Below, piece by piece: positions 6,718 through 41,800 of a stretch of DNA of 64,000 bases (its first letter is position 1; every line of letters starts with the position of its first letter). The stretch lies in the NCBI GenBank assembly GCA_030272585.1, contig BSYQ01000002.1, positions 8,680,001 through 8,744,000 on the forward strand, written 5' to 3'. The position numbers and the translations under genes were made by a program. The notes beneath the pieces were generated by a model that saw only the letters and a list, made by a program, of their open reading frames with translations, ran no database searches and was not told the origin of the DNA. The stretch is from Bryopsis sp. KO-2023. Lineage: Eukaryota > Chlorophyta > Ulvophyceae > Bryopsidales > Bryopsidaceae.

Positions 6718-7165
6718 ACAGTCTAACTAGCTTGTAGCTCAATAATAGAGTATCTGTTGTAAACATGTCCGAAAAAATTCAACATCAAATTACTTTTTTG
6801 TCTTCCTATGTCTTGGTTAAGGGTGGCTTCCCTCTTTAAGCCCACATCCACCAGAAATTTATGGAAATTTTTTGTGAACTTCTGTACTCCTTGAAACTAC
6901 TGATCATCATGTAAACTACATTTCCCATCAAACATCAGCAAAACGTTATGACAATTCTTATTAACTCGAGAAAAACCAACCTCAAATTCTGAATTTTTCT
7001 CTGCTGACAGACCAACCATCTTTAAACGGGAAAAGAAAAATTAGAACAAAATCTTTTCAGAAATATGTATAAATAAAAAGGTAAAACGAGCATTCAGAAG
7101 TGGAGTCGAACCTGTGTCCATCAAACAGTTCCTGTGCATCATTTCACTTATTGGTTTTTTTCTTG

Positions 7166-8150
7166 AAGGGCAACTGTCAGGGGCAGCAGGGCCAGCAGGG
7201 CCAGCAGAGCCAGCAGGGGCAGGAGGGCCAGGAGGGGCAGGAGGGGCAGGAGGGGCAGGAGGGGCAGGAGGGGCAGGAGGGGCAGGAGGGGCAGGAGGGG
7301 CAGGAAAGCCAGCAAGGCCAGCAGGGGCAGGAGGGGCAGGAGGGCCAGGAGGGGCAGGAAGACGAGGAGGACGATAATTTTGGGGATTTTTGCAAAAAGA
7401 TTGTTGACAAAGTCGTGGACAAAGTCGTGGACAAAGTCGTGGACAAAGCTGTGGATACAGCTCGGAAGGGTCTTGAGAAATTCAAAGACAGATTCAAAAG
7501 TAATGGAATGATAATAGAAAAAATTTACACTTCGTGAAAACATCTCGATGTTGAGAAGCAGCGAACAAGAACCCATTCCATCTAAATTGTTTTTTTCGTG
7601 TTTTCAGAGACACTTTTTCGAGTCTCCTGACAGTTTTTATTCTGTTGCAGACCCGAAGAGGCCTTTCCGCTTTAGGGGTTTTAGGGGTTTACTCAACAGC
7701 CCATGCCCTCCCCCATCGCCACCCCCATCGCCATCCCCATCGCCATCCCCACCACCCCCATCGCCATCGCCACCACCATACACCCCTGCTCCTCCTCCAG
7801 CTACCCCAGCACCACCACGATCCACCCCAGCACCGCCACCAGCTACCCCTGCTCCACCACCATCCACCCCTGCTCCTCCTCCATCGACCCCTGCTCCTTC
7901 CCCATCCACCCCAGCACCGCCACCATCCACCCCAGCACCACCACCATCCACCCCTGCTCCTCCACCATCCACCCCTGCTCCTCCTCCATCGACCCCTGCT
8001 CCTCCTCCATCGACCCCTGCTCCTCCTCCATCGACCCCTGCTCCTTCCCCATCCACCCCTGCTCCTCCACCATCGACCCCTGCTCCACCACCATCCACCC
8101 CTGCTCCTCCACCATCGAGGGGCCACTTTCATTTTTGTAACGTGCAGTAG
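7166..8150 (+). CDS. Hypothetical low-complexity protein: Q/G/E repeat, amphipathic helix, proline-rich tail
   Basis: No homologue recognised. The frame 7166-7537 encodes a QEG tripeptide repeat from a 9-bp minisatellite. It is followed by an acidic patch (DEEDDNFGDF) and VDKVVDKVVDK-type heptads that look like a real amphipathic helix. A plausible donor (AAAA|GTAATG, near 7498) and acceptors ending TTTCAG (7600-7605) or TTGCAG (near 7649) would link it to a proline-rich exon ending at the TAG at 8148-8150, with PAPPPSTPAPPPS-type repeats like algal cell-wall hydroxyproline-rich proteins. The 5' exon is uncertain: an alternative frame from about 7114 reads like a signal peptide (IKQFLCIISLIGFFLEG), so the true start may splice in. 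The two repeats could belong to separate genes. Whether the protein is made is an inference. Confidence 0.35.
7178..7365. repeat. 9-bp minisatellite (GGGGCAGGA)
   Basis: About 20 near-perfect units with a few GCCAGC variants. On the plus strand it reads as QEG repeats in one frame and as GGA repeats in another. Confidence 0.9.
7700..8118. repeat. C-rich minisatellite encoding proline-rich repeats
   Basis: Tandem units of about 18 bp (CCTGCTCCTCCACCATCC and variants) follow a shorter CCCATCGCC array. All three plus frames and their complements stay open because of the base composition, so open frame alone is weak evidence for coding. Confidence 0.9.
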
Positions 8151-14832: not shown

Positions 14833-15433
14833 AACATCAAAGGTAGCTGGAAATCCCTCAAACTCCATACTCTAAAATAACGTTATTTTAAAGGCGGAGT
14901 TTTTTCTTGCCAATTGAATAAAGGTGGCGAAAATTGATTCCAGGTGAGAAAGAGTTCTAGTCAAAAAATGCTCGGCGAAAAAAAAAAGTATTTCTTTAGA
15001 GTTTTTACCACAAAAGTATAATAACCCCCTTTTCCGCCGCCTATGGTTACTCTCGACGTCTAGTTTCCTTTTTGCATTTCAGAAAATAATGAACCACCAA
15101 AAACACCTCCAAAGATTGAAAATTTTGAACTAACTGATAGTGAACTCCTGTTCGCAGGACAGGCCCCAGCAAGACAATTTTGGATTCTTTGTGAAAAAAG
15201 GCGGGTTTTTTCATATATCGTCGAGAGGTCGCCGTTTAACTAAGGAACTTCGTCAGGTCTTCTGTCGTCGCTTCAGAAGAAAAAAAAAAAAAAGGGCGCT
15301 GTTTTGGAGAGCGAGTTCCAGTAGCCTCCTTAAGGAGGAAAGCTTTCCTTTTCATCCATTCTGTTTTTGTCTGCGCTTGTGGCGGCGGCGCACTCAATCT
15401 TTAAACACCTAACTATCGGACTAGTACTACAAT

Positions 15434-15520
15434 CTTGCTATAGCTGAGGGGTGTTTTTTTGTATTCCCCCGATGCTATTGGCTCTGGCCTGGCATGTCTT
15501 GGAATATTATCTTTGGTTGG
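15434..15520 (+). mobile_element. Short interspersed element, copy 3
   Basis: Forward copy (CTTGCTATAGC start, core CTCTGGCCTGGCATGTCTTG, end TTTGGTTGG) flanked by ACTACAAT and ACAACCAT, a decayed 8-bp duplication. Same site as copies 10 and 11 in block C. Confidence 0.75.
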
Positions 15521-16450
15521 ACAACCATCAACAGAGAGAGAGAGAGAGAGACAGGGCAAAACGCGCACTCCACATTTTGCATCCCATTTCCTCTCTTTTC
15601 ATGGAAAAAAATGAACGTTTTGTGTAATAAAAGTCAAAATCTTCTCGCATGTACTTATCTTTGTTTGCTTGTTTGTTGGTGTAATCAATTTTGGAGCTAA
15701 ATTCTAGGTTACTTTGTGTTTTCAGAAACGCTATTTATCAAGCTAAATCACCTGCTTGGAGAAAAGCTCTGACGATTACGACATGGTCTGACTGTGCTAC
15801 GAGATGTAGTGCCGGCACTACATCAAGGGCGCCCTTGTCCAAGGCTGTTTTTTGGAAAACATGTTTGTAGCAACTCCCAGGGTTAAAAGCACCTGGAGCA
15901 TTTTCCAATTAAACAAACAAACAAACACAAGTTTGGAATCCAAAAATAAAACAAGAAAAAAAAAGCAAGTTTGGATTCAAATAAACAAACAAACACACAT
16001 TACATTGAAACTGTAATTAAAACCAAACCTGAAACTAATTTAAAACTGTTTTCTTCACTCAATCGATCATATAACATGCACAAAAGTCCAGGCCTGTTTC
16101 ATCACATTCAAAACCCGCTTAATAATATGGAGTGTACAATATCAAAAAATCAACGTGAAAAAAAAAATCAATGTGCACACACCATGACAGTCATCAGATC
16201 ACCCATGCTAGACGCAACCAGCAATGCGCTCTCCTCTTCATCTGTTTTGTTGGGATTCATAGTCTGACATGTCGACCACAAGAATTCCTGAAGTGTTGTG
16301 ACACGTGGGAGTATTTGGCGTCCAGTCAGACAGGGGGCTGGGACAGACTGGGGGAGGCGGGGCAAAACAGGGGCAAAACGAGGTAGCAATTGTGGAGGGT
16401 TTGGGTTGTGAGGTCCCCCATGTAAACTTGGTGGCAGTTCTTTGTGTGGA

Positions 16451-16520
16451 TCCAACCAGAAATACTATTTCAAGACATGCCAGGCCAGAGCCTATAGCAT
16501 CTGGGGGCGAGTACAAAATA
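16451..16520 (-). mobile_element. Short interspersed element, copy 4 (chimeric)
   Basis: The part next to the ankyrin exon matches copy 12 of block C, while the other end (GGGCGAGTACAAAATAC) matches copy 13. This fits recombination between two such copies with loss of the exons between them. Confidence 0.65.
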
Positions 16521-17713
16521 CAAAAATACATCAATACGAGCCCACAGAGTGGTGGCGCTGTCCCTGTCCGCCGCCACCCCCTCTTCTTTCTTCCCCCCGA
16601 TAAACCGCGGGTCAAACATTCCGCGCTTGTTATGTGTTTTGTGTTATTTATCCAGATCAGTAAAAACAAAGAAAGAAAGTGCTCTAACATATCTCGATGT
16701 TGGGTTAAGTTTCAGTTTTTCTGAGTTGGCGGTTTCCCACGTGTTGTTCCCTGGACTGGTCGTCACATTCACTTTCCAAGTTTTTAAACTTTTCAACCTG
16801 AAAAGTTACACCTTTCACCAGCTTAGCTCGTGTTGAACACGGCGCTGGGCTCAGACGAAAGAATCAACCGATCAATCAATTAATGATTACTACATGTTGC
16901 CTGAGGAGTTTGTCACTCTGCTCCTATCCCAACCCAATACCAGATAATCACCTCATCAAAATAATAATAAACAGCTTGGATCCATAAGCCCTTCTGCAAG
17001 AAACAACCAAAAAACAAAACAAAATACAAAAAGAAAGTACCCCCTTCCCCCCCAAATAACTCACAGTCCAAGACGAAAGAATATATACTTTAAACGCAGC
17101 CATTATTCTTGCCACCGAAGAACGAGTAACGAGTTCGAACGTGCGCTCAGTTGAGTGAGACCTGTGGGTTTTGTTGGACGCTAAAAAAAACGACTTGCCG
17201 TTCTTTACCACAGACATATATGCTTTTTTTCTCCCCACGCTTTCTTTTGCGATGCCAGTTTTTATCCTGACTTTTCGGAGCTTTTCAGTGATTGGAGCTG
17301 AATGCTGCAATTTGGTAAGACTCCAGGAAACTTAAGTGAAACCACAAAAAAAAAAAAAAAACATGCACAGAAACGATTCAAATAAGTACACGATTGGTTT
17401 TCTTTCCTCCAATTCGTCGCACCCCCCTTGTAAAGTCATCTAATTCATGGCGGCCTGAAGGCTCGTCGCCCCCTGGACCGCTTTCCCCTCTTGATCTTAA
17501 CACAGCGAATTCTTATCTGTCCGTCATAGGTGCAGGGTTTGGGTCAGGTTCGTTCACTGAAGCGCTGGAAAAGAGCCCCCCGCCCGCCACTGTTCCCTCA
17601 GGGACTAGCGACGGACACGACTGCGTCCCATGGAGGCTCGCATATCTCTCGCAGCTCCGCAGTTTTTTTTTTAACGAGTTTTTGTCGACACAGGTAGTGC
17701 TTTTCTCTTCTGC

Positions 17714-25422: not shown

Positions 25423-25692
25423 TGTGGAAGGCACTTATTTGGTTCGTGTGGATGAGTCACCTTTTGGGAGGTTGGATGCAAGGCGGCTGACCTTGAGTTA
25501 GTCAGTTTGTATTAGTGGGGAAGCTTCTGAACACGTGGTTGGTAATGTGTAGTTGGGATTAGTTGGATTTGGTTCACGTGGTTGTGACGCTGTACAGTTA
25601 GTGGAAACGGTTATGGAATGAACGAGTATTTGATGGTCCTGTGGGTGACCAAAGTTGACTCTTGACGCTGTTGTAAAATTTTGCATTCGACA
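25423..25692 (+). repeat. 5' LTR of element 1
   Basis: 270 bp, TG...CA ends, same sequence as 30675-30944. Confidence 0.92.
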
Positions 25693-30674: not shown

Positions 30675-30944
30675 TGTGGAAGGCACTTATTTGGTTCGTG
30701 TGGATGAGTCACCTTTTGGGAGGTTGGATGCAAGGCGGCTGACCTTGAGTTAGTCAGTTTGTATTAGTGGGGAAGCTTCTGAACACGTGGTTGGTAATGT
30801 GTAGTTGGGATTAGTTGGATTTGGTTCACGTGGTTGTGACGCTGTACAGTTAGTGGAAACGGTTATGGAATGAACGAGTATTTGATGGTCCTGTGGGTGA
30901 CCAAAGTTGACTCTTGACGCTGTTGTAAAATTTTGCATTCGACA
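30675..30944 (+). repeat. 3' LTR of element 1
   Basis: Matches the 5' LTR without visible difference. It is preceded by a short purine-rich stretch (GCAGGGAAG). Confidence 0.92.
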
Positions 30945-30948
30945 GCAT

Positions 30949-32425
30949 GTAATTTTTGGTTTGATTTGGTGTATTTTCTTCTCTTTTCTCGCCAATTCGA
31001 CTTGGTCGCTCACTTCCTCTCAACTACCCCTTCGTCACGTGACTGTGGTTTGGAAAGGCAGCTTCGGCCAATCTGTTTTATTTATTAGTGTATAACCTGG
31101 AACGGTGGGGGCAGACACTGGCGTTTGTGTCAGTCATAGAGGCAATAGAGGCTCAGGCTTCTGCGCACGTAATTTCTGGTTTGGTTTGTGTCGGTCGTTG
31201 GGAACTCCTTTTAGTCATCGTGGAAAGCGCCAGTCTGGCGGAGTCCCTGTTTCTGGCGCCTGGCGGCGTGTGGGCTCTAGTGTTCCAGTGTTCTAGGCTC
31301 TAGTGTTCGCGAGAGGGTGTTTCTGGCGTTTAGGGATGACGGATAGAGTGAGGGGAATTGTTTCTCCCAGAAGTCGACGTTTCGAATACCCCAGGCTGGG
31401 GTATATTAGTGGCGATCGTGTTTGTTGTTGTCGAAGGGGTTTCTCTAAGGGCTGTGTAAAACCGTTGCGTGTGGAGCGACTGCAGTTTCACACACGTGTC
31501 GACTCTGTGAAGATCTGCCTCGAACGACATCCCCAACCGCTGTCTAAAAAGTAATATATCACTCTTTTTCCGAACACGACGACTCCATTCCAGCATGAAC
31601 ACCAGGACGAAAACAAACAAACAAACATCATTTACATCATTTACACCAGGACGAAACTACACTGATTCTTATACCGAAAAAACTCATCTTTGATGATCGA
31701 AAACCTATGACTTACACTTTTCTGGAAGGGAGAACAGATATGCCAAAACCAAGAATATCACAAGATATGCCAGGCCAGAGCCTATAGCATGGGGGGAATA
31801 GTGGTGTTCAGAAAAAGGGAAAAATCAAAACGCTTTTCAACTCTGTTTTCACTGGGGGGTTCAGTCACCCCCCCCTCCCAGTGTTGCACTTTGCTGGAAG
31901 GCTTGAAAAAAGAGTTTGTAAGATTGATTTTTCTTATATTTTCTGGGGTATTATGTAATGGACATAAACATGCACAGTTGTCACGTGTAACGATTTCTTT
32001 ACAGATGTTTTTTAAAAATTGCTGTTTTACATATTCTTTAAAGATAGTTCCTTACATTGCTGTTTTACATGTTCGAACACAGTCCCGCACTTTTATCATA
32101 TACTAGCAGTTGTAACAATGATAAGCAAAATGGTATAGTATTTTGAAAAATTCCTTGTTTGTTTTTTTGAGATGTTCCCCTTCCTACCAGCGGCCCTGTG
32201 GCGATGGAGGGATGACTGACCACCTCGAATTTCCAAATATCGAAATGAAAACTTTCAAAAATCAGGTTTCCGTTTTCCTCAAAAAGAAGTGCAAGAACCA
32301 GTTCGTTCAAAAATGAATCAAAAACTCAATGCATCAATGTACAGTGAAAAAACCATTTTATCAAAAACTAGGAAGATTCTATTGTTGTTGTTCAGCCCCC
32401 ATATCGGTTTTTTTTTCCCAAAAAA
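30949..32425. other. Remnant of block B and non-coding flank
   Basis: 30990-31030 and 31680-31735 match block C (43680-43720, 43810-43862). Minus-strand codons near 31015 read EEVSDQVELARKEKK, matching a coiled-coil segment in block C. 31080-31660 is unique sequence of unknown nature with a TATATTAG box. The rest (31802-32425) holds nothing recognised. Confidence 0.45.
31748..31801 (-). mobile_element. Short interspersed element, copy 8
   Basis: Reverse copy, core only (ATATGCCAGGCCAGAGCC), truncated after GCATGGGGGGAATA. Confidence 0.65.
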
Positions 32426-33943
32426 CTACTCGCTCGTTTCACACCACCAGCAGTTTTCTGGGACTTCCCCTTCAGCTAACTTTTTCACGAAATCGTAAGC
32501 CAATTTTCCCAAACCTTCTGCCAGTTTTTCCCCAGCAGGTACTGACGGTCCAAAATGCACCCCAGCCCACAGTCTGGATTGCCCACAGCTCCTCCCCGCC
32601 TCCTTGAAAGTGTCGAAGCTTATCTCCTCAAACCCCTCTCTGATTTCTGGATCCAGGAAAGTGATATTTATAGAGGTGGGTGGTTGAATATCCAGCCCCC
32701 TTTTTTCCATCAACTCTTCCAAGATCAGCTCCCCATGGTCAGCAAACGCTGTGCAAAGGGAGGCCGACGCCGAAGGATACTCCGAATGGGGCTGAGTAGG
32801 GATGAGTGGCTCCCAGTCGCCAGCCTTGATCGTTTTCGCTTTTCCCTCCTTAGGGACATAAGCAGTCACCTCCTCATCCTTGTAGAAATTCGCTATGACA
32901 GTCTCGGGGCGGACAGCATCGATTCTGACCTTCTCCTTCCAAACCACCACCATGGCGTCGTACTCAGCAAGCATTTCGCCCAGGATCCATCGAGGAGTGA
33001 GTTCAACGTCGAAATGCTGGAGGAAAAATGCCCCGACGGAGGTAAACTTGTTATCCCACCACCTTGCAAGAAACCTTTGCTTAGGAGTGAGGTTCGCCGA
33101 CAGCTCAAACAGGTCTTTCACCAACGCATCCATGGTTTCTCTGTCTGTCCCGTTCAGCTGCTCCGCGTCCATATTTTCGTACGGCATGGCGGCTTGCCTG
33201 GATTGGACCTCCTCTTCGCTGATCAACAGGGGTCTGACTCGACCTAAGAATGGAACCACGTGGGTTTGAGCGGTGAATCGGCCGATCTTGCTGCTGTCGG
33301 CCTGGGTGAGCGGCTGCCACCTGAGCGGGTACTTCAACGACCAGGGGGGGTTCACGGGTGCATACCCAGTGTAGTCCTCAAACGGCTGCGCGTAGTCTGA
33401 CCTGGAGAGATCGCCCATCGAGTTCCAGCTATCCTTGGCTATCCAGTCTGCCAAGCGCACACCGATCACGTTACCCATTCCTACCCCAGTCGATTTGTCC
33501 GTCGAACGATCCTCAGGGTCGTACCCAGCTTCTACCATCAGCTCCTTATATCTCTCCATAGGAAACTCCCTTTCCGCCGCCCTTATGAGCGAGTATGCAT
33601 ACATTTCCCCAACGTTGAAAAAGTTCTGGCAAAACTCCTTCGGGAGCTGTTCTCGTTGCCCCCAGAAAGTCAACGCCTTCTCCTCAGGGTCGCACATAGC
33701 ATACTGGTCCCAAACGGCCACAGCCTGGATGAATGCGTACCGAACCGTGAGCGCCGTGTCGGCGTACAGGATCTCGGGGGGGAATCTGGCCAAGGCAACT
33801 GGGGAGGAGAAGCGAGCACCAGTGATGTCTGGAATAAGCGTCAGAGGATTTTTGAATCCTGGTTCCACCTCCCCGAATGTGCTGCGTGAAAGAAACAAGA
33901 TCGCGAAAGCGACCACCCATTGGCTCCCCCCTCCGATCTTCAT
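32426..33943 (-). CDS. Vanadium-dependent haloperoxidase-like secreted protein (copy 2)
   Basis: Single-exon 505-residue paralogue of the gene at 10217-11752, nearly colinear from the signal peptide (MKIGGGSQWVVAFAILFL) to the shared C-terminus ENCWWCETSE. Vanadate-pocket motifs: KEKVRIDAVRP, PHSEYPSASA and SRLWAGVHF. As in copy 1 the histidine of the S-G-H motif is missing (S-A-S). Differences cluster in the N-terminal 100 residues (QYAMCDPEEKALTF versus QFAICDSKALNF), and no frame damage is seen, which suggests both genes are under selection. ATG 33941-33943 is the only reasonable start and stop TAG is 32426-32428. The gene is on the opposite strand to copy 1 and next to block C. The role is an inference from the superfamily: halide oxidation or a derived, possibly non-catalytic function. 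Confidence 0.8.
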   Translation of the reverse strand: MKIGGGSQWVVAFAILFLSRSTFGEVEPGFKNPLTLIPDITGARFSSPVALARFPPEILYADTALTVRYAFIQAVAVWDQYAMCDPEEKALTFWGQREQLPKEFCQNFFNVGEMYAYSLIRAAEREFPMERYKELMVEAGYDPEDRSTDKSTGVGMGNVIGVRLADWIAKDSWNSMGDLSRSDYAQPFEDYTGYAPVNPPWSLKYPLRWQPLTQADSSKIGRFTAQTHVVPFLGRVRPLLISEEEVQSRQAAMPYENMDAEQLNGTDRETMDALVKDLFELSANLTPKQRFLARWWDNKFTSVGAFFLQHFDVELTPRWILGEMLAEYDAMVVVWKEKVRIDAVRPETVIANFYKDEEVTAYVPKEGKAKTIKAGDWEPLIPTQPHSEYPSASASLCTAFADHGELILEELMEKRGLDIQPPTSINITFLDPEIREGFEEISFDTFKEAGRSCGQSRLWAGVHFGPSVPAGEKLAEGLGKLAYDFVKKLAEGEVPENCWWCETSE

Positions 33944-34209
33944 GGCGGCTTGCGTTATTTCTTATTCTCCTGCGCGACGCGGGTGAACAGAAAATAAGAC
34001 AAAGAAAACTTCCGAGTCCGAGCCTTGAAAACAAAATTACAGAACAACCCCACACCACCCCCGCCGCCGGCGCCGCCGCTACGTCTGACAATTTCCCACC
34101 TTACTTGCTTTTAGTCGAAGAGGTTAGGTCGCACTGATATTCCCACGGTCGCAGCAAACCTCCAGCTCGCGAACAAAAAACAAACCCCCACGCCTATTGG
34201 CACGTACCA

Positions 34210-34260
34210 CTGATGCTACCGGCGCTGGCACGGCATGTCTTGTAATATTTTTTGGTTGGT
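34210..34260 (+). mobile_element. Short interspersed element, copy 9 (perfect 8-bp duplication)
   Basis: A 51-bp short form starting at CTGATGCTAC and ending TTTTTTGGTTGGT, flanked by perfect ACGTACCA duplications at 34202-34209 and 34261-34268. Confidence 0.8.
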
Positions 34261-34794
34261 ACGTACCATTCCGCGCGACGTTTCCCTCATAACATCGTAC
34301 GCTGAGTTAAAACAAATCAAATCATGAGTTACAACAGCTGCGCGCTGTTTCCCTCGAAACATCGTACTTTACGTTTGAGTCAATATAAAACGTTCCAATC
34401 AAAACCTCGTAAGCTACAGGAAAAACGCGACTAAAACGTACACACGAAATGGTACAGCGCACGGAAAGCTGGATCGTACATCCAAAACACGTTTCGTTTG
34501 AATGGAATCTGTCGAACGTGGATGGAAACTGTCCGCCCCTGGTCCTATGGCTGAGCATTGAGCTTGATTTTGTCTTTCCCCTCCCTCACTGAGGGGGGAC
34601 CTGGCAGGCGACAATTCTTTTGGTCGTATTTTTCTCAGAAAAATGCCAGGTGACCGTTTCTGAGGCGTGGTTTTGATCAACGGTTCAGTTGAACGCTTTG
34701 CGGTCGTAACAGGGTGCACCTGCTGGGAGTATAAGACGAGCTCGAGCAAATTCTAGAAGCACGGCAAAAAAGTCGCACGCTAGCGACGGCAAGT

Positions 34795-34860
34795 GGGGGT
34801 GGGGGTGGGGGTGGGGGTGGGGGTGGGGGTGGGGGTGGGGGTGGGGGTGGGGGGGGGTGG
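34795..34860. repeat. (GGGGGT)n array
   Basis: About ten uninterrupted GGGGGT units on the plus strand, enough guanine runs to form G-quadruplexes. Not coding; the PHPHP frames on the other strand are artefacts. Confidence 0.95.
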
Positions 34861-35341
34861 ACTGCCCCCAATCTCCTCTGGAATTGTGAGCACGTTGTAT
34901 CGCAAATATATGTTCAATATGTTTCAAAACACCACCACGACCACCTCTTCCCTTTTTTCTTGTTCAAACATGAAAGAAGCTGGCAAACCCTCATACTGCA
35001 TACTCTGAAATAACGTTTTTTAAAAGCAGGAATTTATTTCCGCCAGATGGAAAGGTGGCGAGAAAAAGAGTTCTAGCCAAAAAACTGCTCGGCGAAAAAA
35101 GAGAGTTTTTCTTTAGAGTTTTTACCACAAAAGTATATTAACCCCCTTTTCCGCCGCCTGTGGTAACTCTCGACGTCCCGTTCCTTTGCATTTCGGAAAA
35201 TAATGAGCCACTAAAAACACGTCCAAAGATTGAAAATTTCAAGTAACTGATAATGAACCCCTGTTCGCAGGCCAGGCCCCAGCAAGACAATTTTGGATTG
35301 CTTCGTGAAATAAGCCGATTTTTCAATCCTTAGGTCAGAAT

Positions 35342-37697
35342 TTAACTAAGGAGCTCCCTCAGGTCTTCCGTTGTCGCTTCAGAAAGGGCGCTGTTTTGGA
35401 GAGCGAGTTGCAGTGGCCTCCTGTCCTTTTCATCCATTCTGTTTTTGTCTGCGCCTGTGGCGGCGGCGCACTCAATCCTTAAACACCTAACTATCGGACT
35501 AGTACTACCATCTTGATATAGCCAAGGTTTTTTCTTTGTATTATCCCGATGCTATAGGCTCTGGCCTGGAATGTCTTGGTAGTTTTTTGGTTGGACTACC
35601 ATTTCTTGCTATAGCCAAGGGTTTTTCTTTGTATTCCCCCGATGCTACTATAAACTCTGGCCTGGCATGTCTTATAATATTATCTTTGGTTGGACTACCA
35701 TCAAGACAGGGAGAGAGACAGGGCAAAACTCGCAATCCACAGTTTGTATCCCATTTTCTCTCTGCTCATAGAAAAAGTGAACGTTTTTTTGGAATAAAAG
35801 TCAAAATCTTCTAGCATGTACTTGTCTTTTTGTACTTGTTTGTTGGTGTAATCAATTTTTTGAGCTAAAATTCAGGTTACTGAGTGTTTTCAGAAACGGT
35901 ATCTATCAAGCTAATCACCTGTTTGGAGAAGAGCTCTGACGATTGCGACATGACCTGACTGTGCTGCGAGATGTAGTGCCCTTGTCCGGCGGTGTTTTTT
36001 GGGGTACATGTTTGTATCAACTCCCATGGCTAAAAGCGCCTGGAGTATTTTCCAATTAAACAAACAAAGAAGCACAAGTTTGGAATCCAAAAAAGAAAAA
36101 GAAAAAAAGCAAGTTTGGAAACAAACAAACAAACAATACATTGAAACTGTAATTAAAACGAAACCTGAAACTAATCTAAAACTGTTTTCTTCACTCAATC
36201 AATCAGTATAACATGCACAGAAGTCCAGGCCTGTTTTTAATCACTTTCAAAACCTGCTTAATATGGAGTGTTACCACCAACAGGTTGGTCAACAAATTCA
36301 AATCCTTCTCCAGGTTCTTTTGGTTCAAATTTAATTCATACATGACCATATTGTCCTTTACCACCTGATTGCTTTACATATTTACCTTCAACTTCAGCAG
36401 CTTTAGTAATTGTTTCACAATAAGAAACTTGCGGAGCACCCACATACTTTTTTTTTTTACAATATCAAAAAAGCAAAGTGAATGTGTACACACCTTGACA
36501 GTCATCAGGTCACCCATGCTAGATGCAACCAGCAACGCGCTCTCCTCCTCATCGGTTTTGTCAGGTGGCACAGCCTGACATGTCGATCACAAGAATTCCT
36601 CAAGTGTTGTGACAGGTGGGAGCATTTGGCGTCCAGTCAGACAGGAGGCTGGGACAGACTGGGGAGGCAGGGCAAAACAGGGGCAAGACGAGGTAGCAAT
36701 TGTGGAGGGTTTGGGTTGTGAGGTCCCCCATGTAAACTCGGTGGCAGTTCTTTGTGTGGAACCAACCAGAAGTATTATTTCAAGACGTGCCAGGCCAGAG
36801 GCTATAGCATCGGGGGGGGGAAGAAACAATAACCCGTAGCTAGCAAGCAAGGTTTATATCGGCTTGTGTTGTCCCTGTTTCTTTCAGTTGTTTCCAAGCG
36901 GAAACTGAAAATGAAGCGTGAGGGTTTTGGGAGGGAGCAGTATGACTCACCCCCCTCCTCATCTCTGCGTCAGACGTGGGTGCCTGGTGCTGAAGGCCTA
37001 AATATCCCCAAACTCGATCTGGAAAGCCAAAAAAATCGCACTTTAACTACTTTTTCAAAAGAGTCGCTTGTTTTTTTTGAAAACACACGTACGTCTGACA
37101 AAAAAAACAAGATCAGCGAATTACTTAAGCATGACGAGAATCAACTCAACGAAAACACCTGTGGTGGCGACCAACCAACCAAAAATATCACAAGACATGC
37201 CAGGCCAGAGCCTATAGCATCGGGGGGCTCGTACAAACAAAATACCCCACCTGTGGTGGCGACCATTGCTGACATGTGACTTTTCCACTCTTTTTGCTCA
37301 TCAACCTTTCCTTCCAACTGATCTATCTTTTCATTTTTTACCCGAACAGCTTCCACCACTTCTTCCAGTTTCCGTTCCATCGACCTCAGGCGCTCTTTCG
37401 TGTTGCGGAGCTCTACCTCCTATTTTTTCAATCAATCGATCAATAATTACAACCCACAGAAAAATAGAGCAGCCATCCCCCCCCCCCCTTGATGCTGAAA
37501 CACGGACAAAAAAAAGGGAAAAAACTTTTGAAGCTGCCAATCGTAACCTGTTTTTCGGCGGCCGCCTCCTCCCTTTCACTGCTTTGACGCACCGAGACCT
37601 CCAGCTCATCAATACGAGCACGGAGAGCGGCGGCGCTGTCCCCGTCCGCCGCCACTCCCTCTTCTTTCTTCCCCCTGATAAACCGCGGGTCAAACAT
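35342..37697 (-). CDS. Gene X copy C: coiled-coil/ankyrin-repeat protein
   Basis: Hand-built exons on the minus strand: 37697-37548 (starts [20 protein letters not shown]; donor CAG|GTTACG), 37419-37251 (coiled coil [20 protein letters not shown]), about 36904-36589 ([14 protein letters not shown], then TATEFTWG and a Pro-rich part; interrupted by a mobile element), 36574-36494 ([20 protein letters not shown]), 36039-35919 (ankyrin, [20 protein letters not shown]) and 35454-35342 ([19 protein letters not shown], ending LRELLS, stop TAA). Phases agree at the joins used and recreate a continuous ankyrin domain (GADKN after LLQT). Ankyrin/coiled-coil proteins act as scaffolds; no enzyme domain is seen and the function is unknown. 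The C-terminus resembles that of gene Y (ATKDALAELLR), so X and Y are related. The connection of the third exon is uncertain and the element in it may inactivate the gene. Confidence 0.5.
35512..35594 (+). mobile_element. Short interspersed element, copy 10
   Basis: 83 bp, flanked by perfect ACTACCAT (35504-35511 and 35595-35602). Confidence 0.8.
35603..35693 (+). mobile_element. Short interspersed element, copy 11
   Basis: 91 bp, directly after copy 10 and sharing the ACTACCAT duplication, which recurs at 35694-35701. The pair arose by re-insertion at the same site or by unequal exchange; block A has a single copy here. Confidence 0.8.
36270..36460 (-). pseudogene. fusA: Fragment of a bacterial elongation factor G gene (TGA read as Trp)
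   Basis: 58 consecutive codons on the minus strand (36443-36270) encode a piece of translation elongation factor EF-G, from VGAPQVSY through [13 protein letters not shown] to [12 protein letters not shown]. The only in-frame stop is a TGA directly after QYGHV, exactly where Firmicutes EF-G has Trp (GHVWI). This fits a mollicute-type genetic code (code 4). Codon use is very AT-rich (GGT, AAA, GAA, TTT), unlike the surrounding genes. Ten T residues adjoin it at 36447-36458. The same intron in block A (16130-16140) runs from GGAGTG straight into ACAATATC, so about 190 bp were inserted here after the duplication. It cannot be expressed as EF-G. Plastid and mitochondrial genomes normally lack this gene, so a bacterial associate is the likely donor. 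Confidence 0.85.
36760..36863 (-). mobile_element. Short interspersed element, copy 12 (full length, in exon of X-C)
   Basis: 104 bp from ACCAACCAG to TTTATATCGGC, flanked by TTGTGTGG (36752-36759) and TTGTGTTG (36864-36871). Removing it restores a continuous reading frame of gene X-C across the site (ETGTTQ joined to TATEFTWG). Confidence 0.75.
37174..37247 (-). mobile_element. Short interspersed element, copy 13 (intron-like, at splice junction)
   Basis: 74 bp between two exact copies of an 18-bp sequence (CACCTGTGGTGGCGACCA; 37156-37173 and 37248-37265). On the minus strand each copy contains the exon end CCACAG followed by GTG, so a donor exists at the left edge and an acceptor at the right edge of the insertion. 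Confidence 0.75.
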
Positions 37698-38553
37698 TCT
37701 GCGCTTGTTATGTGTGTCGTGTTGTTTGTTCAAGTCAGTAGAAATCAAGAAAAGAAGTGCTGTAACCTGTCTCGATGCTGAGTTAAGTTTCAGTTTCTGA
37801 GTTGGCGCTTTCCCGCGTGTTTGTTTCATGGACTGGCCGTCACATTCAGTCGCTTTCTTTCAACCTGAAAAACTCCCTTTCACCAGCTTAGCTCGTGTTG
37901 AACACGGCGCCGCGCTAAGATGAAAAGAATCAACCGATCAATCAATGATTACATGTTGCCTGAGGAGTTTGCCCCTCTGCTCCTATCCCAACCCAATACC
38001 AGAAAATCACCTTATCAAAAAAAAGCAAAAAGCTTGGATCCATAAGCCCTTCTGCAAGAAACAACCAAAGAACAAAACAAAAAACAAAAAGAAAGTACCC
38101 CCCCCCCAAATAACTCAGAGTCCAGATGAAAAAATATATACTTCAAACGCCGCCAGCATTCCTGCCACCGAGTGACGAGCTCGATATAAACGTGCGCTCA
38201 GTTGAGTGATACTTGTGGGTTTTGTTGGACGCTCAAGAACGACTGGCCGTTCCTTACAATGGACATATGCTTTTCCCCTCCCCGCGCGCTTTCTTGCGAT
38301 GCCAGTTTCATTCTGGTTTTTCGACGCTTTTCAGTGATTGGAACTGAAACTCAAGACTTTTCTGATCGAAAAAAAAGTTCTTGGCACTGTTTTTTTCCGA
38401 TTCTCTGGTACAGGGAGCCGTTTCTGGAAGGTCCAGCCGACAAGACACCTATTCCATTTCTAGAAAATGTTGCTTTCAAATCGTTCCTATCGAACACATC
38501 CCGATTTTTGAAACATGGAAGTAGCGGACACCCGAAACGACCTGTTCAAAGAA

Positions 38554-38653
38554 ACCAACATCCCCAAAATCTTACAAGACACGTCAGGCCAGAGCCTATA
38601 GCATCGGGGGAATACAAAAAAGAAACCTTAGCTAGCAAGGTTCATTATATCGC
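38554..38653 (-). mobile_element. Short interspersed element, copy 14
   Basis: 100-bp reverse copy with full tail (CTTAGCTAGCAAGG...TATATCGC), flanked by TCAAAGAA and TCAAACAA (7 of 8). Confidence 0.75.
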
Positions 38654-38816
38654 TCAAACAAAACATTCAAAAATCGATGGATCGATGGACTACACATCGC
38701 CTGAGGAGGTAGAAACCACAAAATTTTCCCTAAACAATCGCTTTAATTAAAAAACATTTTTTCCCACACCGCCACACGAGCCATTCACATCCCTTGACTG
38801 TAGAATTTTGAGGTGT

Positions 38817-41800
38817 TCATCTCAAGAGCTCGGCTAAAGCGTCCTTCGTTGCTTGGGGAAGTCTTGCGTTCCACTCGCCAATAACGTCTACAGGATATTG
38901 GCCGTAGTGATTTTTCAACTTTTTTGCCCCTTGAACGAGAAAAAGAAAAACAACAGTTAAAGCCAGAGCTTTGAGAATTATGCTTGAATAACAAAGCGAA
39001 ATTGGACATATCTTTTGTTTGGAAAAACCAAACAGATGTAGCTAAAAGACTAGTTTGGAAGATGCCAGTTGTGGAAGTGGACAATCAATTTTTTATTTCA
39101 GATATACCTAACAGATGTAGTTAAAACACTGGTTTAGAAGATAGTTGATTGTCAAAGTGGACAATCCATCTATTGACTGCCAGAATGTTGCAGTGGATAG
39201 GTCCAAAAAACAAATATCCAGGGAAGCAAAATTACCAGCTTGGAGCAACGCCTTGGCCATTTCGGGGCTGCCAAAGGAAGATGCGAAATGTAAAGCTGTG
39301 TTGAGTGCGTAGTCACGAGTATTTACGTCAAACCCCATGGCTATGAGCGCCTAAAAGTTTCACAATGTTTTTTAGACAACCAAAAAGATTCGAGCAATAG
39401 GAAGGGCAACATGACGAATCAATCAAAAATTGATCATTAATTTCAACCCACACAAAACAAACAAACAAAACAAACATAATTACTGCAAAGATGCCGCCCG
39501 GCATCTATTACTGGAAAAAATCACTTCGCAAAATCGATCCATCAGCCCCCATGATGCTGGAAAACATATATTGACAAAACTATCGCGACAAAAACGAGAA
39601 ACAGAGAGATGGGAAAAGCGGGATGGTTTTTTTTTACCTCGACCATTCGAAGGTCATCGCGTTTAGCAGCGGAAAAGAGAGATTCCCTTACAGCCTGTTA
39701 CTCCAAAAACAAAAAAAGAAGTTCAAAAAAAATTCCTGAAGAAAACAGAAAGGTCCCCAATCAGAAGCACCCAAAAAGACTTGGAGCATACCACAAGATT
39801 ACCGGATTTGTCGAAAATTGCCGAACGACAATATTCTCTGCAACAAAAGAACGAGCTCTATTAAATAAAGAATTCCTTATGATTTACAAGTTAATAACAA
39901 CTGGTCACTTTTTGCCTGTGGAAGCTTAAGTTTATCGGTCGGAAAGCAAGCATCAGCGTGTGTTTCCTAGGTTCAAATTTGAATTTTACAGGATAAAAAC
40001 AAACCGAAAAGCACTGGCTAGGTATTTCCACAATGTCGCACTTATGTTCTTCAGCAACGCTTCCTGGCCTTGTAACTGAATTTCTGCTTTTTGGATGGTT
40101 TCCTGAAGTGCCGAAACGGTCGATGCCTTTTCATGATCGAGCGCAACGAGCCCGGCTGTAGCCAGCAAAAAAAGCCCTACGAAACACACTTTCAAAACCG
40201 TGTGTGTTTTTGCCAGTGGGCGCCCCTGGAGAGACTTTATCAGTGCATCTCTCTCAGCCAATCTTGCGTCGCGCTCCCGTATCTCCATGTCTTTTTTGTC
40301 AGCGTTGGACCTGCTCGCTGCCAACTGCTTCCCCAAAGCAGTGACCTCAGACGCTTTCGAGTTTATCCTGCTTCTGAGGTCGACATGAAGAGAGTCAGCC
40401 GTGCGGCGATCCTTTTCGTGACTCGCTCGGAGAGAATCAACCATGCGGCCATCTTTTTCGAGACTTGCTCGGAGAGATTCGATCATGGCATCCCGCTCCA
40501 CCAATCTCGCTTTGTGCTCCTCTATGTCCGCCTCCTTCTCGAAAATCTTGTGCTCGCTGTTGGTCAACTGCTCCCTAAAAGCGGCAATCGCCACGGCTTT
40601 CTCCTTGAGCTGCTCACGAAGGGAGTGCATCATGAAGTGGGTTTCTTGAAGACTGGCAAGTTCTGGTTGTGGTTCGGCTATGTCGGACAGGGCTTTCGAA
40701 ATGAACGCATCCCTCTCGGCAATGGTGGTGTCTCTAGCGGCTATGCAACAGTTCTTTTCCGCGAGCTCCTTCATAACGCGGCGTAGGTCGATATCTTTCG
40801 TCTCAACAGCGAGCTGGACGATATCACACAAACAATAGAGTCTAACTGGCGCTGCATAATCTGTAGAGTTCGCCTTGGGAAAACTAGAGGGGGGGGAGAC
40901 CGTAAAATTCTGTGAAATAGGTCGCAGAACTGACGAATTCGGTTCATTCTACAAAAGCAAGACAAGAAAAAGAGTCGTTCTGTGACGCAAAACAACTTAT
41001 CAAGTTCGAGATAGCTGATCTGTGAAGGTAAGAATAAAACAAAACAGCCAGGAGTACCTTCAACGAATGTATCCGTTCAGACACGTCGTCGACTTTCATC
41101 AGCGACTCCTGCAACCTCCACCCTGGGGCTGCTAGGTGGCAAAAAACGTGTTTGTTATCATTGCTATATTATTTTGTCCTGTTTTGAAGTGAAATCATTT
41201 CGAGCACACACTATTTGAAAGGTACAAAACATTCACAAACGGTTCTCTCACCTCCTACAGGAAATTTTTGATTACGGCGCGCCAACACCTTTTCAAAATC
41301 ATCCCTGCCTTGCAGCTCATCCAGACGAGCACGAAGATAAGCGATTTCCCCTTGAGAATCTGGCGCCTTACGCTCGCTTGATAATTTCTCTATGTGAAAA
41401 CACAGGTAAACTTTACTGTGGCTTGAAGCCCCTAAAAATAAAGCGTAAGAATGCGTTCTGTCGCTCCCACGACACCAGGGTCACTCCTGTCGACTTTTCA
41501 GAGAAACAGGGGGTTTCACAGGTCGAGACCCCTTTCGCTGTTGGGGGCTGAGAAGGAAAGAAAGCTATGACTTGGCTACTGCAGCGGCGCCGCCATTTTC
41601 GTAAGCAAAAGAAAAGCGTGTTTTTTTGAGGGCATAAGCGCAAGCAGGTCGAGTTACCTTGCAACGCACGATCCTGAAAGTCTGACATGGCCCCCTTGCA
41701 ACCTCGATGTTCAGCTGCACCTCGTTTCACCCCAAACGTCCCTCCGTGTATTTGATCGCAGGAGGGCAGCCTTACCAGTGTCGACAAAACTTTTTTGAAA

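Follow-up and report, generated by a model that had tools for sequence, protein, structure and literature searches.

The window is a stretch of 64,000 nucleotides from contig C2 of the Bryopsis sp. KO-2023 assembly, and it carries on its minus strand a 187-bp insert that holds a mycoplasma-type fragment of fusA, the EF-G gene (Table 1). The bounds of the insert are set by a paralogous site, block A, at which it is absent. Judged from sequence signals, the insert probably lies in an intron of a nuclear ankyrin-repeat gene for which the gene model is predicted. This predicted intron measures about 290 bp in block A and 454 bp with the insert, and ankyrin models match two ORFs of that strand, with best values of 1.1e-5 and 5.5e-8.

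The EF-G reading frame of the fragment is incomplete, comprising about 57 of about 695 codons and containing neither a start nor a stop. Translated with code 4, the minus strand of the insert contains a single TGA, which is read as the W of GHVW. An earlier note on this DNA had recognised an EF-G fragment on the minus strand with one in-frame TGA at the conserved Trp, the mark of code 4, and both points are borne out. The insert peptide matches the Pfam model EFG_IV (E 1.1e-17), and among the solved-structure sequences 42 match it, with the EF-G entry 7pao_9, which we take to be the Mycoplasma pneumoniae protein, ranking first at 1.1e-20. The insert holds 57 in-frame EF-G codons, where the note counted 58. 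The final residues that the note read, NTPY, derive from CACTCCATA, which is host sequence beside the insert, as CACTCCATATTA occurs in block A too. The T10 run that the note placed at the boundary exists but is located inside the insert, where it forms, on the EF-G sense strand, the A-run of an A10-GT stretch. This A-run is either filler or was expanded later. The fragment is as AT-rich as the note had described, with a GC3 of 7% in the window copy (copy B) and 4% in a second copy (copy C). A search of the host genome (91 Mb, 28 contigs) with the insert peptide matched five places, with scores of 1.9e-36 at the window locus and 2.1e-33 at the second copy, and a chance match is therefore excluded.

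Table 1. Insert, host surroundings and comparison sites. Positions refer to the window unless a contig is named.
Feature	Position	Strand	Remarks
Block A paralog with empty insertion site (GATATTGTA/CACTCC)	15751..16420	-	
Predicted downstream exon with ankyrin repeat	from 36039 to 35911 (putative far end)	-	Pfam Ank 1.1e-5 on ORF 35911-36198
Predicted host intron around the insert (AAG/GTGTGT ... CTCCAG/GCG)	36040..36493	-	454 bp; splice signals only
187-bp insert (copy B)	36271..36457	-	A10-GT, then EF-G fragment, end GGTGGTAA; aligned to block A empty site and copy C
57 codons of EF-G domain IV, in frame under code 4 (VGAPQVSY...VDQPVGG)	36273..36443	-	
TGA codon, in frame, at the conserved GHVW Trp	36336..36338	-	located by counting along the sequence
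5'-terminal A10-GT on the EF-G sense strand (read as a T-run on the plus strand)	36446..36457	-	no EF-G counterpart; A9 in copy C
Second insert copy (copy C)	C2:8170745-8170930		
Example nuclear plastid inserts	C4:2462232-2462469; C6:5959340-5959472		

The region surrounding the insert is present three times on C2, as block A (window 15.8-16.4 kb), as B, the insert locus itself, and as C (locus L006), five first-look candidates having been scored. Copy C of the insert lies 546 kb away from copy B, has the same junctions and likewise contains one TGA. In block A GATATTGTA is directly followed by CACTCCATATTA, whereas in B and C the insert stands between these two sequences. Since block A reads through uninterrupted, its site is empty, and the insertion cost the host no bases and left no clean target-site duplication; the alignment thus upholds the note's observation that the paralogous intron lacks the fragment. 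Copies B and C differ at 7/186 positions in the insert, and at 17/273 and 15/354 positions in the two flanks (32/627 together). The insert has thus diverged along with its flanks and is chromosomal DNA that is inherited and drifts, which tells against a chimera of the assembly. The flanks of block A diverge from those of B and C by 8.4-10.3%, and in the 3' part of the intron the values are 7.4-7.9% for A against B and C and 5.2% for B against C. The simplest history would place the insertion between the splitting of the block A lineage and the parting of B from C. An insert that was in place before the segmental duplication must predate any culture. The seven changes between B and C fall at codon positions 3, 2, 2, 3, 2, 1 and 2, as expected of DNA that is free of selection.

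The codon usage and composition of the fragment point to a particular group of bacteria. Candidate donors were drawn from the best 80 of at least 580 confirmed loci in named bacterial and archaeal genomes, from an even draw on the class to which an Izemoplasma relative belongs (matches in 376 of 395 genomes) and from the order of genome G369, taken as Mycoplasmatales (308 of 320 genomes matched). The codon comparison covers 178 bacterial loci, three host loci being left out, and represents high-scoring rows, not a random draw. At the position of the GHVW Trp, the 70 Mycoplasmatales loci comprise 55 with TGA, five with TGG and ten in which no Trp motif was found; the other 108 comprise 92 with TGG and 16 without the motif. 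Among loci with a Trp at this position, TGA is therefore used in 55/60 Mycoplasmatales and 0/92 others. The median GC3 of the order is 14% (70 loci) and that of three host EF-G-like exons ranges from 56 to 64%. Among the rows compared, the best nucleotide identity of the fragment is 143/168 (85.1%); the first 15 rows of this ranking all have TGA at the Trp, and the 16th has TGG. These comparisons support as donor a code-4 Mycoplasmatales bacterium that read TGA as Trp. The genes neighbouring fusA appeared poorly conserved in the retrieved bacterial loci. A viral origin was considered and rejected, as the relatives encoded by 17 IMG/VR contigs reach an identity of just 45-52%.

P0102, the closest protein found, is a 695-aa EF-G encoded on an 8,136-base contig with the source given as 'lgn'. 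It is identical to each copy of the fragment at 53 of 57 residues (93%), and its match includes a 16-residue stretch that is absent from the other 24 matches listed. Two of the differences from P0102 are common to both copies (R to C, D to E), and two more are private to each copy. The main tree contains 118 reference rows (96 proteins left after thinning a set of 152, and 22 loci) and both fragments, 120 rows altogether, with the fragment rows aligned by hand to the columns of P0102. In this tree P0102 groups with the fragment at a UFBoot of 99 and the two are joined by P0144 ('Mollicutes bacterium PWAP') and L196 at 96, while the Mycoplasmatales side, which comprises 108 of the 120 rows and includes both fragments, has a UFBoot of 100. 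MAFFT placed the fragments as they had been placed by hand, and FastTree kept the grouping with P0102 (SH 1.0). When the six residues KEPGEG are masked, leaving 51 residues (FastTree only), the Mycoplasmatales side is retained with an SH of 0.995 and the grouping with P0102 is lost. The placement among Mycoplasmatales is thus well supported, and the phylogeny called for by the earlier note agrees with its proposal of a mycoplasma- or spiroplasma-like donor as far as the Mycoplasmatales are concerned (TGA, GC3 and side of the tree), but nothing indicates Spiroplasma. The putative sister relation to P0102 is less sure, as it depends on KEPGEG, and the exact donor lineage within the order is one that we infer. 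In a set without P0102, for which two copy-B residues were shifted by hand, likelihood placement gives Mycoplasmatales a weight of 0.80 and other Bacilli one of 0.17, and the KH test keeps several of the latter; with just 57 residues this placement is weak. A first tree, the alignment of which dropped a different residue from each copy (KPGEG versus KEGEG), had Candidatus Mycoplasma mahonii (P0021) as sister at a UFBoot of 77 and is superseded by the tree with P0102.

The earlier note proposed to search the same assembly for contigs of a mollicute symbiont. No mollicute 16S was found among the five scored of 1,239 candidates, nor did the assembly yield an intact mollicute fusA. A search with P0102 gave 49 matches, of which only the two fragments are mollicute-like; the remaining ones have at most 74% identity, a value reached in the conserved G domain on C9, where there is no TGA. 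A 302-aa EF-Tu query gave 11 matches in the host, none with a TGA, and no mollicute-like piece. The missing donor speaks for, though it falls short of proving, a contact that lay in the past. Mycoplasma 16S has been reported inside Bryopsis (PMC3196581), and in the account of the KO-2023 culture none of the 50 quality-filtered MAGs is named as a mollicute, the circular set of that work being confined to assemblies above 1 Mb (PMC12509668). It is a tentative and rather doubtful suggestion that mollicutes have long lived inside this algal lineage, that their DNA reached the nucleus by end joining as plastid DNA did, and that a datable succession of code-4 scraps is present in the genome. If this were true, in-frame TGA codons would reveal the scraps, which would record the history of the algal-mollicute symbiosis.

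The nucleus also carries scraps of organellar DNA, with which the insert can be compared. Contig C28 (91,672 bp) contains a plastid-type 16S and has a GC of 0.32 in the 4.5 kb read, in which we take psbE and its neighbours to be present. Contig C27 (356,152 bp) contains a second organellar-type SSU, taken as mitochondrial, and has a GC of 0.54 (4.1 kb). In Bryopsidales the mitochondrial GC is reported to be high and markedly above that of the chloroplast (PMC6944098), and the mitochondrial genome of Bryopsis hypnoides is reported at 408,555 bp with 57.9% GC (PMC11852573). A plastid query of 4,480 nt gave 43 matches (40 of 69 candidates scored), 39 of them outside C27 and C28. These 39 nuclear scraps are 44-238 bp long and 82-100% identical. 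Two of them, on C6, form a mosaic in which non-adjacent plastid stretches abut with 3 bases common to both at the seam, which is typical of end joining. A mitochondrial query of 4,081 nt (five candidates scored) gave six matches, the only nuclear one being the place of a 100% plastid match, and no mitochondrial-type nuclear scrap was obtained from this query.

The mollicute scrap resembles the plastid scraps in its size and in its clean empty site. At its 3' junction the expected bacterial sequence GGT AAA ATT CCA, deduced from GGKIP of P0102, has some letters in common, in register, with the host sequence, so that a microhomology-guided join is possible at this end. Capture by end joining, with the fragment as filler in break repair, is consistent with the junctions and would be the likeliest route, given how many plastid scraps (44-238 bp) are found in the nucleus. 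It is proposed that the algal nucleus received a fusA piece of about 175 bp from a Mycoplasmatales bacterium in which TGA encodes Trp, the DNA presumably having been released by an intracellular mollicute. The piece would have been taken up by end joining at a double-strand break, a route shared with the short plastid pieces, and ligated into the ankyrin-gene intron on C2 with no loss of host bases and no clean target-site duplication. This would have taken place after the block A lineage split, and a segmental duplication would then have separated B and C. The insert would since have been a passenger of the intron, lengthening it from about 290 to 454 bp and drifting neutrally with no coding function. 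As a whole, the capture of a Mycoplasmatales fusA piece into a nuclear intron followed by its duplication is the best explanation, with a probability of about 0.88.

Other explanations have to be weighed against this. A bacterial donor outside the order, that is an AT-rich member of the Bacilli with code 11 in which TGG became TGA by mutation in the host after the insertion, draws on L134 and L136, non-Mycoplasmatales rows with 82.7% nucleotide identity, on L115 and others that do not have a one-residue gap, and on the KH test, which keeps such placements when P0102 is absent. It is nevertheless quite unlikely, as TGA occurs at the Trp in none of the 92 such loci, the trees with P0102 place the fragment on the Mycoplasmatales side whether masked or unmasked, and the GC3 of the fragment is 4-7%. 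The A10 run that adjoins the fragment could be read as the tail of a retrocopy, a bacterial transcript that was reverse-transcribed and inserted by a host retroelement. The run precedes the EF-G sense sequence on its 5' side, however, which is the wrong end for a tail and would require an antisense transcript, and a clean target-site duplication is lacking; this origin is thus very unlikely. That the fragment is the remnant of an EF-G gene of the host itself (plastid, mitochondrial or nuclear), its Trp codon having mutated to TGA, has a probability close to negligible. EF-G-like exons do exist on C9, C1 and C8, but they are 47-52% identical over the peptide with a GC3 of 56-64%, and the fragment is 93% identical to the mycoplasma-type P0102, so that the best match to a host EF-G envisaged in the earlier note is not what is found.

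The capture of Mycoplasmatales DNA also has to be distinguished from an artefact. The KO-2023 culture is reported to grow with many bacteria (PMC12509668), and a read from a co-cultured mollicute might have been joined to an algal contig as a chimera or contamination. The two copies are separated by 546 kb and have both junctions in common, their inserts differ much as their flanks do, and the assembly yielded neither a mollicute 16S, within the scope given above, nor an intact mollicute fusA; a chimera is therefore barely credible. The worry raised in the earlier note is answered because two diverged copies have the same host junctions, and its proposal of a nuclear capture stands. The insert might further be in use as a cassette exon or an intronic regulatory element of the ankyrin gene, considering its sense orientation and that it is kept in both copies. 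Against such a function, which is highly improbable, are the in-frame TGA that halts reading in the standard code, the five of seven changes at codon positions 1 or 2, and a divergence like that of the flanks.

The insert shares features with several known systems. Like NUPTs and NUMTs, it is short and presumably non-functional and has kept its site whole, and at least 39 plastid pieces of this kind are present in the same genome; unlike them, it derives from a bacterium with another genetic code and not from an organelle. DNA of endosymbionts is also inserted in host nuclei, for example that of Wolbachia in insects, and is mostly dead on arrival. Here too DNA of an associated bacterium is found in the nucleus of its host, but the donor is a mollicute, the host an alga, the insert a single 187-bp piece of one gene, and a search of the assembly gave no live donor. 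With the EF-G of Mycoplasmatales the fragment shares the TGA at the GHVW Trp, AT-rich third positions and 53 of 57 residues of P0102, yet it retains only about 57 of about 695 codons and is decaying. The chloroplast genomes of Bryopsidales contain ORFs of bacterial origin that their authors link to intracellular bacteria (PMC4487195). These are a further case of bacterial DNA in a siphonous green alga, but they are in the chloroplast and not in the nucleus, and the terms mycoplasma, Mollicutes and Tenericutes are not used in the text (PMC4487195). A search of the literature, covering titles and the openings of abstracts, retrieved no prior report of such an insert. The insert is direct genomic evidence that mycoplasma-type DNA made its way into the heritable nuclear genome of a green alga, and it preserves, as a small molecular fossil, the trace of an old contact of the alga with such a bacterium. 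The reassigned TGA makes code-4 scraps unusually easy to separate from organelle DNA.

On contig C2, segmental duplications around the ankyrin-repeat gene are multi-copy and partly inverted (window 15400-17300, 31700-39100 and L006). On C24, a stretch of N adjoins the rDNA in the flank at L015 1-1216. The window further contains tandem arrays of 9-nt and 21-nt units at 7152-8147. A direct repeat of 270 nt with 100% identity is found at 25423-25692 and 30675-30944, 5.25 kb apart, and is probably a sign of recent duplication or conversion.
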